Source: Bacteroidota bacterium
GTDB taxonomy: Bacteria; Bacteroidota; Bacteroidia; Cytophagales; Cyclobacteriaceae
Reading direction: 5' to 3'
Length of the DNA: 64,000 nucleotides
NCBI GenBank assembly: GCA_013285945.1
Contig: JABDGP010000004.1
Span: 1 to 64,000, forward strand
In this document: positions 42,446 through 61,871 of the stretch, piece by piece
How the letters are laid out: each line of letters begins with the position of its first letter
Numbering within the stretch: the stretch's first letter is position 1
The notes under the pieces: generated by a model
Told to the model about the DNA's origin: nothing
The model's input: only the letters and a program-made list of their open reading frames with translations
The model's database searches: none
Translations under genes and position numbers: made by a program

Positions 42446-43519
42446 TTAAGACCGCTTCGCATGAACACTCATCTCACAATTGAATTTCTTCACAAGGAAA
42501 TCATCCATTTCATCGGCCTTTGCAGGCAAGCCAATTAGATCCTTTTGAATCGCTGGTGCGTATGAACTAAAAAGATCATTTAGTGCCACGCGATAGGACA
42601 AATGAATTTGATTCTCCCAGATTCCCAGCCGGTAAGGTGCTATCGGACTACTTAACATATACCGAAGCAATTCATCCAGATTTCCTTTGGGAAGTTTATT
42701 GATTGGGCAATTAGCATGGAAATAATTGCTGTTATATATAAAGAGTCTCACCAATGAGCTTCCATGATGAAATTCCCAAAACTCATTACCCATTCGCGCA
42801 AGCACGGGATTGTGGCCCATGCCGGCGATCGTTGATTCAATAAAGTTGCCGAGAGCGGTGAGGGGAGTTTCGTCAAATATTTTAGCGTCCATGGTTTCAC
42901 CACAGCTCGGACAATAGTCGGAAGGAGTATAAGAAAGACTTCCGCACGAATTGCATTTCACCGAAAACCCTCCACCATGTGAATCTAAACTTTGCAGTTC
43001 CTCCAAAAGGACAGAACCCGGTATTGCAAAGCCCATATTATCGGCCTGTGTAAATTTCGAGGTTGTAATACCAACAAGGTTGCCGTCAGCGGTCACTACA
43101 GGACCTCCACTATTGCCTGGGTTTACGGCTGCATCTATCTGCACATAAAATCGCTCATTCATTAATTGATTTGCAGAAGTAATAGTACCCTCGGTAACCG
43201 TGTATGGCATTCCGAATGGATAGCCCAGCACATATACCTGCTGGCTGGTTTGTAACGCGCTTGGAATTTCAAACCCGGCAGCAGCCTGTGGTGAGAAATC
43301 AGACTTTAATATCGCTACATCGGCGGCAGGATTTACCAAAATGACCTCGGCGAGATAACGATTCATGTTCTGATCTTGAAGAGCTACTCGTTTATTGCCT
43401 TGCACCACATGGTAATTGCTGATCCAAAGGTTTTTATCACGAAGGTAAAAACTGGTGCCGCTTCCGCCTGCGGTAATAACTTTGGCGACTAAATTGGATA
43501 AATGCTGTAAAGACTCCAT
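42446..43519 (-). CDS. Trypsin-like (HtrA/DegP-type) serine protease with zinc ribbon and C-terminal YbjN-like region, no signal peptide
   Basis: Triad motifs ISNYHVV (His), AADVAILK (Asp), NPGNSGGPVV (Ser); CNSCGSLSYTPSDYCPSCG ribbon; C-terminal ~130-aa domain. Confidence 0.85.
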   Translation of the reverse strand: MESLQHLSNLVAKVITAGGSGTSFYLRDKNLWISNYHVVQGNKRVALQDQNMNRYLAEVILVNPAADVAILKSDFSPQAAAGFEIPSALQTSQQVYVLGYPFGMPYTVTEGTITSANQLMNERFYVQIDAAVNPGNSGGPVVTADGNLVGITTSKFTQADNMGFAIPGSVLLEELQSLDSHGGGFSVKCNSCGSLSYTPSDYCPSCGETMDAKIFDETPLTALGNFIESTIAGMGHNPVLARMGNEFWEFHHGSSLVRLFIYNSNYFHANCPINKLPKGNLDELLRYMLSSPIAPYRLGIWENQIHLSYRVALNDLFSSYAPAIQKDLIGLPAKADEMDDFLVKKFNCEMSVHAKRS

Positions 43520-43540
43520 CGGGATTTTTGTGAGGGTAAA

Positions 43541-44677
43541 TTATTTATTAAGTGTAGCCAAGTGCGCTTCATAAAGCTTGGGGTCTAAAATGACATCATA
43601 CGCATTACGTAAAGTGACTGCCGCTTCTTCCCATGTCTTTCCCGACGCGTTCAGCAAAGCCTCTTCACACAAGCGGGTGACATTACCATCCATTCGATTA
43701 TAATAGAGTGAGCGAAGCAAATTGTATTGCATTGTGAAATAAGCCGACATGTAGTTCTTATTCTTTATACTTTCTTGTGAGGCAGTATTAGCATGGCTTA
43801 AATTTTGGCGCACATTATCAATTGAATTACCCGACCGGAATGGGATGAACGTTTCTGCTTTGTAAATGCTGTCGAGGAATTTTTTCTTGTCATACTTTTT
43901 TAGTCTTTCCAGAAACCCTTTTGCATACTGTACTCGCTTGTTGTAGTCTGCATGATTGTCGTGAAGATCTGAAATGGCCTTATCCAATTCGGAGTGCACA
44001 AAGCCCTGAGGTGCGGCGAAGTAATCGATTTGCATAAGCGTGCAGGCCAATATATCCCAAAGATATCCCCAGCGCTTTTCTTCAAATTGCTGTAGATACG
44101 ATAAGCCTTGGTCTGCATAGCCTTGCATCGTATTCCAGATGACCTCCAGTTGGGGTTCGGGGTAACGTTGAATTTTTGGTTCTTGGATGTATGAGGCTTT
44201 GAACATTTCAATGAAGCGGTCGTCATTATTGTCAGCTTCCTGGCACATTTCCTTGATTGTATAGAAAATTTTGAAAGGCTCCGCCAATTCGATGGGGCAA
44301 CTGAAGTGAAATGTGATTTTATTATCGGTGAGTGTAGCCGTACTAATCGTAAGAGGCCAAAAACTAAGCTGGGCTACTTGTCGCATCAGAGGTACTGAAG
44401 AAACCGCTGGCAAGTTGATAAATGGCGTAGTGATTTCTAGGGTCTTGCCAATTTTGAGGTTGACGATAGTTGATCCGTGGGGGACATTAAATTCAGTTTG
44501 ATCAGCATTGCCATATTTTGAAATCAACGATTCGTCGATATACTTGATCAAGGCCACGACAGACTCCTTGTATTGTTTGTTATCGTATAAGTCGGTCACC
44601 GTCTTCCAGTAGTCGAAATTATATTTGTTCTCTTCAACTCCGGTAAGTGAGCGATCAAAACGAAAAGCGGTAGTCAT
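43541..44677 (-). CDS. Hypothetical protein with YbjN/sensory-transduction-regulator-like region; probable operon partner of the protease
   Basis: STIVNLKIGKTLEITTPFINLPAVSSVPLMRQVAQLSFWPLTISTATLTDNKITFHFSCPIELAEPFKIFYTIKEMCQEADNNDDRF; 21 bp upstream of the protease start. Start MTTAFRFDRS at 44677. Confidence 0.7.
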   Translation of the reverse strand: MTTAFRFDRSLTGVEENKYNFDYWKTVTDLYDNKQYKESVVALIKYIDESLISKYGNADQTEFNVPHGSTIVNLKIGKTLEITTPFINLPAVSSVPLMRQVAQLSFWPLTISTATLTDNKITFHFSCPIELAEPFKIFYTIKEMCQEADNNDDRFIEMFKASYIQEPKIQRYPEPQLEVIWNTMQGYADQGLSYLQQFEEKRWGYLWDILACTLMQIDYFAAPQGFVHSELDKAISDLHDNHADYNKRVQYAKGFLERLKKYDKKKFLDSIYKAETFIPFRSGNSIDNVRQNLSHANTASQESIKNKNYMSAYFTMQYNLLRSLYYNRMDGNVTRLCEEALLNASGKTWEEAAVTLRNAYDVILDPKLYEAHLATLNK

Positions 44678-47255: not shown

Positions 47256-48350
47256 ATGAAGGCTGGGACAATACTATTGTTGCTGGCTTTTGTTCAAGTT
47301 TGCAAGGCCCAAAACCTTGTACCGAATCCCGGCTTTGAGCAATATTTCGATTGCCCTGGCTCATACAATCCTCAGGGTTCTGATAGAAATTTTGCTCCAG
47401 GTTGGATTTCGCCAACGCTGGGCACTCCCGATCTTTTTAATCGATGCAGTTTTGGTAACGCAGGCGTGCCGCACAACTGGGCTGGTGTTGCACATGCGCA
47501 CAAAGGTTTTGGCTACTCAGGTATTTATGCATGGATCAACAACAGCAATTACCGCGAATATCTTCAGGCGAAGCTGGCGAGTAAACTGGTTGAGGGAAGA
47601 AAATACAGAGTCGAATTTTTCTTCAGGCTTTCGGTCTATTCAAAATACAGTATCGATCGTGTCGGTGTATTACTTTCAGATTCAACACAGCAAGTGGCAC
47701 ACGACCGCATCTGGACGGTAGAGCCCACTTTTACTCATGTGATGGATTCCGCATATAGCACAAAGACAGGAATATGGAATCATTTTTATTTTGAATACAC
47801 AGCGAAAGGCGGAGAGCAGTATATCAGCATCGGAAATTTTTCTCCTGATGAGGAGATACGAAAATTCCATATCCAACATTCGGATGCCAGTGAACCCATG
47901 CTGAGCAAGGCAGCCTACTTTTATATTGATGACGTTTCGGTTACCCCACTGAACAATGCCGAGCGGGATTCTAGAGACCTGGCCAGCCGTGAAGAAGTAA
48001 AACCAAATGAGGTCTACATTTTAAAACACATCTTTTTTTCATTTAACAGCTATGATCTCATGCCGCCATCGTATGAGGAGCTCAATCTTCTGCTGTCGAT
48101 TATGAAGAAAAACCCAACATGGAAAGTTGAGCTTAGCGGGCATACAGATGACAAAGGCAACAATGTTTATAATTATAATTTATCTTTAAACCGTGCCAAA
48201 ACGGTTGGCAGGTACCTGGTGCAGGGCGGAATTGCTGTAGAAAGGATAAAAACGAAAGGTTTTGGCAAATTAAAGCCCCTGAAACCAGCAAAAACTGAGG
48301 AGGCACGGATGGTTAATCGAAGAGTAGAAGTTAAATTCGTAACCAAATGA
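47256..48350 (+). CDS. OmpA-family protein with N-terminal carbohydrate-binding-like domain (paralogue 1)
   Basis: QNLVPNPGFEQYFDCPGS...; C-terminal OmpA peptidoglycan-binding ELSGHTDDKGNNVYNYNLSLNRAKTVGRYLV. Confidence 0.88.
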   Translation: MKAGTILLLLAFVQVCKAQNLVPNPGFEQYFDCPGSYNPQGSDRNFAPGWISPTLGTPDLFNRCSFGNAGVPHNWAGVAHAHKGFGYSGIYAWINNSNYREYLQAKLASKLVEGRKYRVEFFFRLSVYSKYSIDRVGVLLSDSTQQVAHDRIWTVEPTFTHVMDSAYSTKTGIWNHFYFEYTAKGGEQYISIGNFSPDEEIRKFHIQHSDASEPMLSKAAYFYIDDVSVTPLNNAERDSRDLASREEVKPNEVYILKHIFFSFNSYDLMPPSYEELNLLLSIMKKNPTWKVELSGHTDDKGNNVYNYNLSLNRAKTVGRYLVQGGIAVERIKTKGFGKLKPLKPAKTEEARMVNRRVEVKFVTK

Positions 48351-48363
48351 CAATAATAAATCT

Positions 48364-49452
48364 GTGAAATGGCTTCTCGTATTATGCTCTTGTTGGCTTG
48401 GTCATTGGTGTTTAGGGCAAAACCTAGTACCTAATTCCGGTTTCGAGGAATTTAACAGATGTCCTACTTCGTTTAGCACAGACCCCAAGCATTTTGGCCC
48501 CAACCAATGGAACTCGCCCACGATCGGTACGCCCGACTATTTTAATAAATGCAGCATCGGCGAAAATGGCGTTCCTAGAAACTGGGCGGGAGTTTCGTAT
48601 GCCCATTCGGGAGTAGGCTATTCGGGAATTTACGCCTGGAACAATAAGACCGGAAATTATCGCGAATACATTCAATGCAAATTGAAGGAGCCTCTTAAAA
48701 ACAGAGCTTCTTATTATATCGAATTCTATTACAGGATATCATCGTATTCAGTGTATGCAATTGACAGGATTGGTCTTGCCTTGTCAGATTCGGCTGTGTG
48801 GGTCAGACGTGATAACTGCCTCGAAATAACACCTGTGTTTTCTGAGAAAAAAAAGCTGGAGACACTCACAAACGGATGGCAACGCGCTTCGGCACAGATC
48901 ACAGCTCGTGGTGGCGAACAGTTTTTAATTATTGGGAATTTTTCTGACAACGAATCCACTGAAAATACAAAGATTGATTATCGGGAAGGGAAAAGCCCGA
49001 TGCTTGGCGGCAGTGCTTACTATTATATAGACGACATCTTAGTCTCACCTATAGATGATGCTCCGGTTATAGATTCAGTAAGCTTAGATTCACTACCTGC
49101 GATCCGGCCCAACGAAGTTTACATTTTAAAACACATCCATTTTCCATTCAACAGCTATGAACTGCTGCCTTCTTCATTTCAGGAACTTGACGCATTGATT
49201 GCTATCTTAAAAAAGAATCCACAGTGGAAAGTCAATCTTAGTGGCCACACTGATGATCAGGGTTCTGACGACTACAACCTTGTACTTTCGGCTAACCGTG
49301 CCAAAAGCGTTGGCAATTATCTGTTACAAAATGGCGTGCAGGGCGATCGGATACTAACACAGGGATTTGGCAAACAGAAACCGTTGCACGATGGAAATGA
49401 TGAGCAAGCACGAATGCTCAACAGGAGAGTGGAAGCAAAATTCATAGACTAA
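48364..49452 (+). CDS. OmpA-family protein (paralogue 2 of tandem pair)
   Basis: QNLVPNSGFEEFNRCPTS... collinear with the preceding gene; NLSGHTDDQGSDDYNLVLSANRAKSVGNYLL. Confidence 0.88.
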   Translation: MKWLLVLCSCWLGHWCLGQNLVPNSGFEEFNRCPTSFSTDPKHFGPNQWNSPTIGTPDYFNKCSIGENGVPRNWAGVSYAHSGVGYSGIYAWNNKTGNYREYIQCKLKEPLKNRASYYIEFYYRISSYSVYAIDRIGLALSDSAVWVRRDNCLEITPVFSEKKKLETLTNGWQRASAQITARGGEQFLIIGNFSDNESTENTKIDYREGKSPMLGGSAYYYIDDILVSPIDDAPVIDSVSLDSLPAIRPNEVYILKHIHFPFNSYELLPSSFQELDALIAILKKNPQWKVNLSGHTDDQGSDDYNLVLSANRAKSVGNYLLQNGVQGDRILTQGFGKQKPLHDGNDEQARMLNRRVEAKFID

Positions 49453-59558: not shown

Positions 59559-61871
59559 ATGGCAAAAAAATCAACGTGGACAACCATCGGCAAACGGAAG
59601 ATTGAGCTTTCCAATCTGGAGAAAGTCCTGTTCCCGGAAGATGGCGTAGTCAAAGCCGAAATAATAGAATACTATCTCAAGATTGCTCCCACATTATTAA
59701 CGCATGTAAAAGGCCGAGCACTTACGCTGATCCGTTTCCCCGATGGTGTAGGTGGCGAAATGTTTTACCAGAAGAATCGCCCCGAGTGGGCACCCGATTG
59801 GATTGAGTTTGAAGTTTTAGGTAAGGAAAAGAAGGATTATATCATCGCGACAGAGCCTGCATCATTGGTATGGCTTGCCAATCTTGCCGCACTCGAACTT
59901 CATCAGCTTCATAGCCGCAAACCCAATTATGAGTTTCCCGATTATATGGTCTTCGATCTTGATCCCCCCGAAGGCTATACGTTTTCAAAAATAACAGAGC
60001 TTGCTTTTGATTTGAAAACACACGTAGAAAGTTTTGGCTACACTGCTTTTGTGAAAACAACCGGAGGGAAAGGTGTTCATATCTGCTGCCCGCTTGAGCC
60101 GAAGGCAGATTTTCATGCCGTGTTTGAGGCAGCACAAATGATTGCTCAGCCTTTCGTTGATAAGAATACATCTACTACTACACTTCACATCAAAAAAGAA
60201 GCGCGCAAAGGAAGGGTGTTGATCGATATTTATCGTATTCGTTCCGGACAAAGCATTGTATCGCCATACAGTTTGCGCGGAAGAAACGGTGCCCCGGTTT
60301 CTATGCCGCTGTCGTGGGACGAACTTTCGAAATTAAAAGACCCGAAGGAATATAATATCAATAACGCGGTAGAAAAAGTATTGCGCGATGGCGATGCATG
60401 GGAAGGGATGGACGCTTATTCGGTAGAGATTCATACACAACGGAAGAAAGTTGTAGCGAAAGAATTGCCGGTTTCAAAGAAAAGAAAGACGCCTGAGCAA
60501 CTGGAGTCGTACGAGAAGAAGCGCGACTTCAAAAAGACTACTGAACCCAAACCTCAGATCGATATCAGCGGCGGAAATAATTTTGTAGTACACAGGCATC
60601 ATGCCACCAATTTGCATTATGATCTTAGGCTCGAACAAGATGGCGTGTTGAAATCGTGGGCTGTGCCACGCGGCCTGCCTCCGCATCCGGGTGTGAAGCG
60701 GCTGGCAGTGCAAACAGAAGACCACCCCATGAAGTATCTTACCTTCGATGGTAAAATCCCCAAAGGTCAATATGGTGGTGGCGACATGTGGATTTATGCA
60801 CTGGGAAAATACCAGATCACCAAAGACAAGAAAGACGGATTTTATTTTCGCCTTAGCAGCAAAGAAATTTCCGGCGAATACCGGATTTATAAAATCAAGA
60901 ACAAAGAGTTTTTGCTAGAGCGTGTGGACGAACCGCAATTCAATTATCTACACAGCGACATCGAGCCGATGCTTTCTGCCAGCGCCGACAAGCCTCCGCT
61001 CAACGATGACTATCTCTATGAAGTGAAGTGGGATGGCATCCGTGCGCTGGTATATCTTGAAGACGGACAGGTGCGCATCACCAGTCGCAACAAAAACAAT
61101 ATCACCAAACAGTTTCCCGAGTTGCTCGATGCAAAATCATTTCGTGCCAACTGCGGTGTGTTTGATGCCGAGATTGTTTGCCTCGACAAAACCGGCAAGC
61201 CTGAGTTTAAAAGAGTAATCAACCGCTTACAGACTTCCGGCGATTCTAATATTCAGAAGCTCAGCAAAACCAATCCGTCGTACTGTTACATCTTTGATTG
61301 CCTTTACCTTGATGGAAGAAGTTTGGTAAATGAGCCGCTTACAAAACGCAGAGAGTGGTTGAAAGATGCGGTGCACACCAACAAAGCCTATCGCATCAGC
61401 GACATAGAAGACGACGGCCAACTCTTGCTTGATGCAGCCCGTGCACATGCACTCGAAGGCATCATGGCCAAGCGCAAAGACAGCAAGTACCTGCCCGGCA
61501 AGCGCACCGATGCGTGGGTGAAAATAAAAATCCGCAACACGAGCGAGGTCGTGATCATCGGCTATAATCCCGGCAAGGGCAATCGCGCCAGCGCCTTTGG
61601 CGGACTGCATATAGCCGAGCGCGATGGCGATAACTTAACCTACCGCGGCAAGGTGGGTACCGGCTTTGACGATGCCACACTCAAAGAAATATTTGCCGAC
61701 ATCAAAAAACTGGAAGAGATAAAAAAGCCCATCCCTCAAAAAACACTGGACGACAAAACGAGCAAGTGGGTAGAGCCCAAACTGATTGCCGAAGTCACCT
61801 ACGCCTCACTCACCCCCGACAAAATCTTCCGCGAGCCTGTGTTTGTAAGGATGAGACCGGATTTGGGTTAA
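59559..61871 (+). CDS. ligD: Multifunctional DNA ligase D (polymerase - 3'-phosphoesterase - ATP-dependent ligase)
   Basis: POL: IELSNLEKVLFPEDGVVKAEIIEYYLKIAPTLLTHVKGRALTLIRFPDG; PE: FVVHRHHATNLHYDLRLEQDGVLKSWAVPRG; LIG: YEVKWDGIRALVYL nucleotidyl-Lys motif and EGIMAKRKDSKYLPGKRTDAWVKIK. Confidence 0.96.
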   Translation: MAKKSTWTTIGKRKIELSNLEKVLFPEDGVVKAEIIEYYLKIAPTLLTHVKGRALTLIRFPDGVGGEMFYQKNRPEWAPDWIEFEVLGKEKKDYIIATEPASLVWLANLAALELHQLHSRKPNYEFPDYMVFDLDPPEGYTFSKITELAFDLKTHVESFGYTAFVKTTGGKGVHICCPLEPKADFHAVFEAAQMIAQPFVDKNTSTTTLHIKKEARKGRVLIDIYRIRSGQSIVSPYSLRGRNGAPVSMPLSWDELSKLKDPKEYNINNAVEKVLRDGDAWEGMDAYSVEIHTQRKKVVAKELPVSKKRKTPEQLESYEKKRDFKKTTEPKPQIDISGGNNFVVHRHHATNLHYDLRLEQDGVLKSWAVPRGLPPHPGVKRLAVQTEDHPMKYLTFDGKIPKGQYGGGDMWIYALGKYQITKDKKDGFYFRLSSKEISGEYRIYKIKNKEFLLERVDEPQFNYLHSDIEPMLSASADKPPLNDDYLYEVKWDGIRALVYLEDGQVRITSRNKNNITKQFPELLDAKSFRANCGVFDAEIVCLDKTGKPEFKRVINRLQTSGDSNIQKLSKTNPSYCYIFDCLYLDGRSLVNEPLTKRREWLKDAVHTNKAYRISDIEDDGQLLLDAARAHALEGIMAKRKDSKYLPGKRTDAWVKIKIRNTSEVVIIGYNPGKGNRASAFGGLHIAERDGDNLTYRGKVGTGFDDATLKEIFADIKKLEEIKKPIPQKTLDDKTSKWVEPKLIAEVTYASLTPDKIFREPVFVRMRPDLG

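Follow-up and report, generated by a model that had tools for sequence, protein, structure and literature searches.

A trypsin-like protease with a YbjN-like domain and its co-inherited partner, a putative cytosolic protease-adaptor pair of Bacteroidota and Campylobacterota

Domain organisation and a fold common to both proteins

The window analysed here is a stretch of 64,000 nucleotides at the start of contig JABDGP010000004.1, from a bacterium of the Cyclobacteriaceae. It contains a gene for a trypsin-like protease and, immediately before it on the same strand, a gene for a second protein, here termed the partner (Table 1). A first-pass annotation had described two open reading frames separated by 21 bp, with His-Asp-Ser triad motifs and a CxxC-x10-CxxC ribbon in the protease, and each was found exactly where it had been claimed. 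Elsewhere in the window, reading by eye picked out tandem paralogues of ~360 aa on the plus strand (47256-48350 and 48364-49452), whose start reads NLVPN.GFE and whose C-terminal part is OmpA-like, and a multidomain DNA ligase resembling LigD of non-homologous end joining (59559-61871, plus strand).

Table 1. Coordinates of the two genes and of the features assigned to their products.
Feature	Position in window	Strand	Description
Protease gene	42446-43519	-	357 aa; HtrA-type trypsin, zinc ribbon and TY-Chap (YbjN-like) domain; second in pair
Trypsin-like protease domain	42980-43468	-	Residues 18-180; Trypsin_2 and HtrA structure matches
Catalytic codons	H37 43409-43411; D67 43319-43321; S137 43109-43111	-	
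Zinc ribbon	42902-42955	-	C189/C192/C203/C206
C-terminal TY-Chap/YbjN-like domain of protease	42482-42856	-	Residues 222-346; AlphaFold topology and hhalign against partner
Partner (putative adaptor) gene	43541-44677	-	378 aa from its ATG; first in pair; 21 bp before protease
N-terminal helical hairpin of partner	44513-44617	-	Residues 21-55; helices in model; TPR-like by appearance only
TY-Chap/YbjN-like domain of partner	44201-44494	-	Strands and helices 62-159; first helix in preceding hairpin
C-terminal all-helical domain of partner	43547-44158	-	Residues 174-377; model

The triad of the protease is formed by the motifs SNYHVV (H37), ADVAIL (D67) and GNSGGP (S137), and its ribbon reads CNSC-x10-CPSC. 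Pfam assigned the catalytic domain to Trypsin_2 (E 3e-24) and matched ribbon models weakly. The nearest solved structures by profile were those of HtrA (E 3e-41), and a fold search with the whole chain returned HtrA only. The NCBIfam equivalogs DegP, DegS, MarP and MamE matched only the protease domain, far under their cut-offs; PADLOC matches were generic to trypsin domains and were discarded. No PDZ domain was matched in Pfam or NCBIfam, and the place of PDZ is occupied by the ribbon and the TY-Chap domain. In agreement with the first reading, no signal peptide was apparent when the N-terminus was read by eye, and a simple hydropathy scan of 42 family proteases detected no segment of transmembrane strength (no 19-residue window above 1.6). 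His, Asp and GNSGG were intact in 40/42 distinct family proteases, and the four ribbon cysteines were present in all 42. These sequence features support a cytosolic location, intact catalysis and the absence of PDZ.

The two exceptions were inspected individually. In one (L063, G235:C2:126674-127717) TYGGGP replaces GNSGGP and the catalytic serine is lost; in the other (L062, G095:C58:25496-26548) the motif is MFSGSP, such that the serine is retained and the active-site/oxyanion loop is altered. Both belong to one family with long protease branches, both retain the ribbon and the TY-Chap residues W248, P277 and E228, and each of the two genomes retains a partner gene elsewhere. They may constitute a pseudoprotease offshoot.

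Searches with the whole partner returned nothing significant from Pfam; its hairpin had no Pfam TPR match, and its C-terminal helical domain corresponded to no known family in Pfam, NCBIfam or PADLOC. Matches to HTH_37 (Pfam, E 0.075) and to PADLOC models (E >0.005) were discarded as chance.

The first-pass annotation had proposed that the N-terminal half of the partner and the C-terminus of the protease share a YbjN-like fold. Alignment of the family profiles with hhalign matched partner residues 22-166 to protease residues 214-357 with a probability of 97.6% (E 3.3e-12, 116 columns), compared to 0.1-0.6% for three control domain pairs, and cross-matches between the two proteins were also obtained from single profiles. 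AlphaFold models, built solely from the sequences of the window and of fetched relatives, were confident for both the protease (pLDDT 88.7, pTM 0.84) and the partner (pLDDT 87.8, pTM 0.81), and the element order α-β-β-β-α-β-β-α was present in both domains. Published work describes this order in DR1245, in YbjN and in type III secretion chaperones (PMC3575483). The best PDB match of the partner model was 2PLG (YbjN), followed by ExsC, SigE, other type III chaperones and the YbjN structure 6VU7. Thus, rather than unrelated folds, the two proteins display a common one, and judged by their profiles the α/β domains are homologous.

The name YbjN-like stands on profiles, relatives and models, since the window's own two proteins fall under the Pfam thresholds for YbjN and TY-Chap1. 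Among 21 partner relatives, ten matched PF22551 (TY-Chap1; best 2e-6) and two matched PF10722 (YbjN). The family profile of the protease C-terminus retrieved a stand-alone protein from the window's genus (E 1e-11) that scores above the Pfam YbjN threshold. Two such stand-alone YbjN-type proteins of ~150 aa, related to the protease C-terminal domain, were noted in this genus (L088:1480-1926 in G203, and G031:C1:3610466-3610873).

Distribution and co-inheritance of the pair

An initial search identified two relatives of the partner within the genus (34% and 74% identity), with a protease gene next after each. Partners in ten named genomes, including Flavobacterium, Spongiivirga, Ulvibacterium, Pseudochryseolinea and a Sulfurovaceae MAG, were likewise followed directly by a protease of the same architecture. 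The partner profile was found in 14 of 396 Bacteroidota genomes drawn evenly, and strong matches to the ribbon-TY-Chap half of the protease occurred in the same 14. If kinship between genomes is ignored, the odds of such a coincidence for two random sets of 14 are 10^-25. Further matches to the protease half in Bacteroidota were weak: one was a stand-alone YbjN protein and the rest were mostly ribbons alone. The pair was also found in 7/200 Campylobacterota genomes, adjacent in every case. This taxonomic range is a lower bound, with phyla outside Bacteroidota and Campylobacterota covered by one contig scan using two strict patterns.

Across 41 genomes the genes were adjacent in 38, in the order partner-protease and mostly with a gap of -4 to 30 bp; in the remaining three (G095, G235 and G762) both genes are present but unlinked. 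Conserved pairing across Bacteroidota, on which the first reading depended, was therefore observed, and it extends to a second phylum. No conserved third gene was detected in 35 loci, where the neighbours were solely lineage-specific. In three Campylobacterota loci an oligopeptidase of the M3 family (HExxH; M3 by Pfam) lies directly after the pair, and in a fourth it lies one gene apart (L131, L132, L133 and L135); a conserved exported protein of ~335 aa is next after the oligopeptidase in these loci. The M3 neighbour is limited to this one lineage.

Trees built by maximum likelihood from 40 proteases and from 40 partners both resolved one and the same pair of clades (17 and 23 rows), with support of 100/100 in each tree, and concurred on most supported groups. 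Campylobacterota were placed twice in both trees, once per clade, indicating two separate entries of the pair into this phylum. Protease and partner distances correlated at 0.95 and 0.82 within clades, and none of 2000 permutations was as high. Species history is included in this correlation and contributes to it, but does not explain the two matching Campylobacterota placements. Co-function of the protease and the partner is well supported by these results. A 602 kb Bernardetia plasmid (NZ_CP147018.1) encodes an intact family protease (L032:11995-13074), and no partner was found on this replicon.

The most conserved elements of the partner are α2 and α3, and its termini vary between lineages. 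Two clade A Campylobacterota encode partners with a hydrophobic C-terminal helix (L031 and L130), many clade A partners end in KKGFFSKLF-like tails, tails of the type KKGFFS-x-LF were noted in the Flavobacterium partners L022, L024 and L025, and many clade B partners carry an N-terminal M-x-x-F-x-x-LF-like motif. The window's own partner carries no such tail or motif. These tails and motifs may provide optional membrane attachment.

A candidate protease-adaptor complex

ATP-driven machines are generally regarded as the agents of regulated bulk proteolysis in the bacterial cytosol, and HtrA proteases act mostly in the envelope under PDZ control. The pair described here is probably one undescribed machine that hands selected intracellular proteins to the protease. 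We favour a model (probability roughly 0.6) of a cytosolic HtrA-type protease in which an assembly of two TY-Chap domains, formed with a dedicated adaptor, takes the role of PDZ as client receptor. A heterodimeric receptor is proposed because each protein has one TY-Chap domain, α2 and α3 of the partner are conserved and the protease lacks PDZ. Both gene products would thereby form one cytosolic complex, with the TY-Chap domain of the partner pairing with that of the protease in the manner of class-I type III chaperone and YbjN dimers. The resulting peptide-binding platform would stand in for the PDZ domains of HtrA, catching unfolded or tagged client segments and perhaps activating the protease, and the trypsin-like domain would then cut clients without ATP. 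The helical domain of the partner, together with the hydrophobic or amphipathic tail of some relatives, may determine client choice or membrane location, and the ribbon could act as a rigid or metal-dependent linker. The interpretation originally offered, a cytoplasmic two-component proteolytic module, is supported by the shared fold and conserved pairing; the ribbon and YbjN-like parts may, as it suggested, sense clients or partners. More tentatively, and at somewhat less than even odds, the pair may represent a new ATP-independent class of cytosolic HtrA-type protease in Bacteroidota and Campylobacterota, where a heterodimer of type III chaperone-like domains from protease and adaptor replaces PDZ in both client capture and activation.

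Most class-I type III chaperones form homodimers, so each of the two proteins could self-dimerise. Structures of YbjN and DR1245 show that proteins of this fold dimerise with the α2 helix at the interface, and like class-I type III chaperones they are believed to engage extended or unfolded chains independently of ATP (PMC5398634, PMC3575483); SycN-YscB provides a precedent for a heterodimeric chaperone (PMC3553376). The conservation of α2 and α3 in the partner sequences fits both dimerisation and the binding of unfolded segments. In Deinococcus a YbjN-like gene lies near oligoendopeptidase F, and a role in degradation has been proposed (PMC3575483). This arrangement and the M3 neighbour would favour proteolysis.

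Alternative explanations were weighed against this model. The protease domain taken by itself is an ordinary HtrA domain, and the enzyme might simply be an ordinary HtrA relative adjoining an unrelated gene. This is the least credible explanation: neighbourhood and co-occurrence data refute it, since the genes co-occur perfectly, are linked and have congruent trees, and the lack of PDZ and the domain common to both proteins oppose it. It is also very unlikely that the complex is mainly a scaffold or chaperone in which the protease domain is a peptide-binding module and proteolysis is secondary. Such a role would account for proteases that keep the ribbon, W248, P277 and E228 after loss of the serine (G235) or change of the oxyanion loop (G095), and because their genomes still keep the partner the function is perhaps partly non-proteolytic. 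However, the full triad is present in 40/42 proteases, and the two exceptions, which form a single long-branched family whose genes are unlinked, look more like decay or late repurposing.

Two further explanations are considered unlikely, both to the same degree. The partner could be a stoichiometric inhibitor or antitoxin, with the protease a dormant effector in the cytosol, restrained through TY-Chap contacts until a stress or phage signal frees it. A two-gene module with the partner first, its patchy spread (14/396 and 7/200 genomes) with two entries into Campylobacterota, and the occurrence of trypsin and TY-Chap domains in predicted conflict systems are all compatible with this. Yet no defence family recurred among 107 neighbouring proteins, the recurrent neighbours include dnaN, NusA and GldN, searches of phage, plasmid and viral collections did not find the partner at the sensitivity applied, and in three genomes the genes are apart with neither lost. 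A viral fold library gave no credible match. Alternatively, the TY-Chap assembly could recruit one client, such as a regulator or an envelope protein precursor, whose site-specific cleavage is a signal rather than quality control. Class IA type III chaperones do bind single effectors and the tails on many partners suggest a defined cellular place, but no conserved third gene is present as a possible client. Delivery of clients by a TY-Chap adaptor to a cytosolic protease remains our preferred reading. If correct, a conserved HtrA-type protease that lacks an export signal and has a chaperone-fold adaptor would represent a second mode of regulation for this protease fold. The YbjN/TY-Chap domains, which are widespread but poorly understood, would in that case gain a testable function, namely presenting unfolded segments to a protease.

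Relation to known systems

A search of the open-access literature, to which most subscription papers and all preprints are external, returned no description of the pair and no paper joining YbjN with a trypsin-like protease. The closest relatives of the enzyme are the S1C proteases HtrA, DegP, DegQ, DegS and AlgW, which share its trypsin-like fold and H-D-S triad and are its nearest structures by both profile and fold. S1C proteases usually, though not universally, carry C-terminal PDZ domains, are exported to the periplasm or anchored in the membrane, and form trimers or higher oligomers that cleave without ATP. In contrast, the present protease has neither PDZ nor an apparent export signal, contains a zinc ribbon and a TY-Chap domain instead, and has an obligate neighbour gene.

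Both proteins share their α-β-β-β-α-β-β-α fold with YbjN, DR1245, TY-Chap1 and class-I type III chaperones, a likeness that implies no type III secretion. While known YbjN/TY-Chap proteins are mostly stand-alone (~150 aa), here the domain forms part of larger proteins, joined to a protease in one and to a helical domain in the other. DR1245 neighbourhoods in Deinococcus also bring the YbjN fold near peptidases, an Xaa-Pro dipeptidase and oligoendopeptidase F (PMC3575483), but there no trypsin-like protease is fused to the YbjN domain.

Cytosolic trypsin-like domains with partner genes are also found in predicted conflict systems (MoxR-vWA/VMAP with Trypco, and NucA-trypsin), where the partners are different ones (PMC7159879, PMC8195603). 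TY-Chap1, a domain of peptide-binding type, was named in a study of predicted conflict systems based on ADP-ribosylation, in which it is coupled to partner genes; that paper makes no mention of trypsin (PMC9503650). No NTPase core, EAD or Trypco partner was conserved in the 35 loci, no Trypco or EAD family appeared among the partner matches, and no recurrent neighbour family was of the ADP-ribosylglycohydrolase type. The present pair therefore differs from both kinds of conflict system: it lacks an NTPase, an EAD, Trypco, an ADP-ribose enzyme and a variable effector, and is a two-gene module in housekeeping surroundings.
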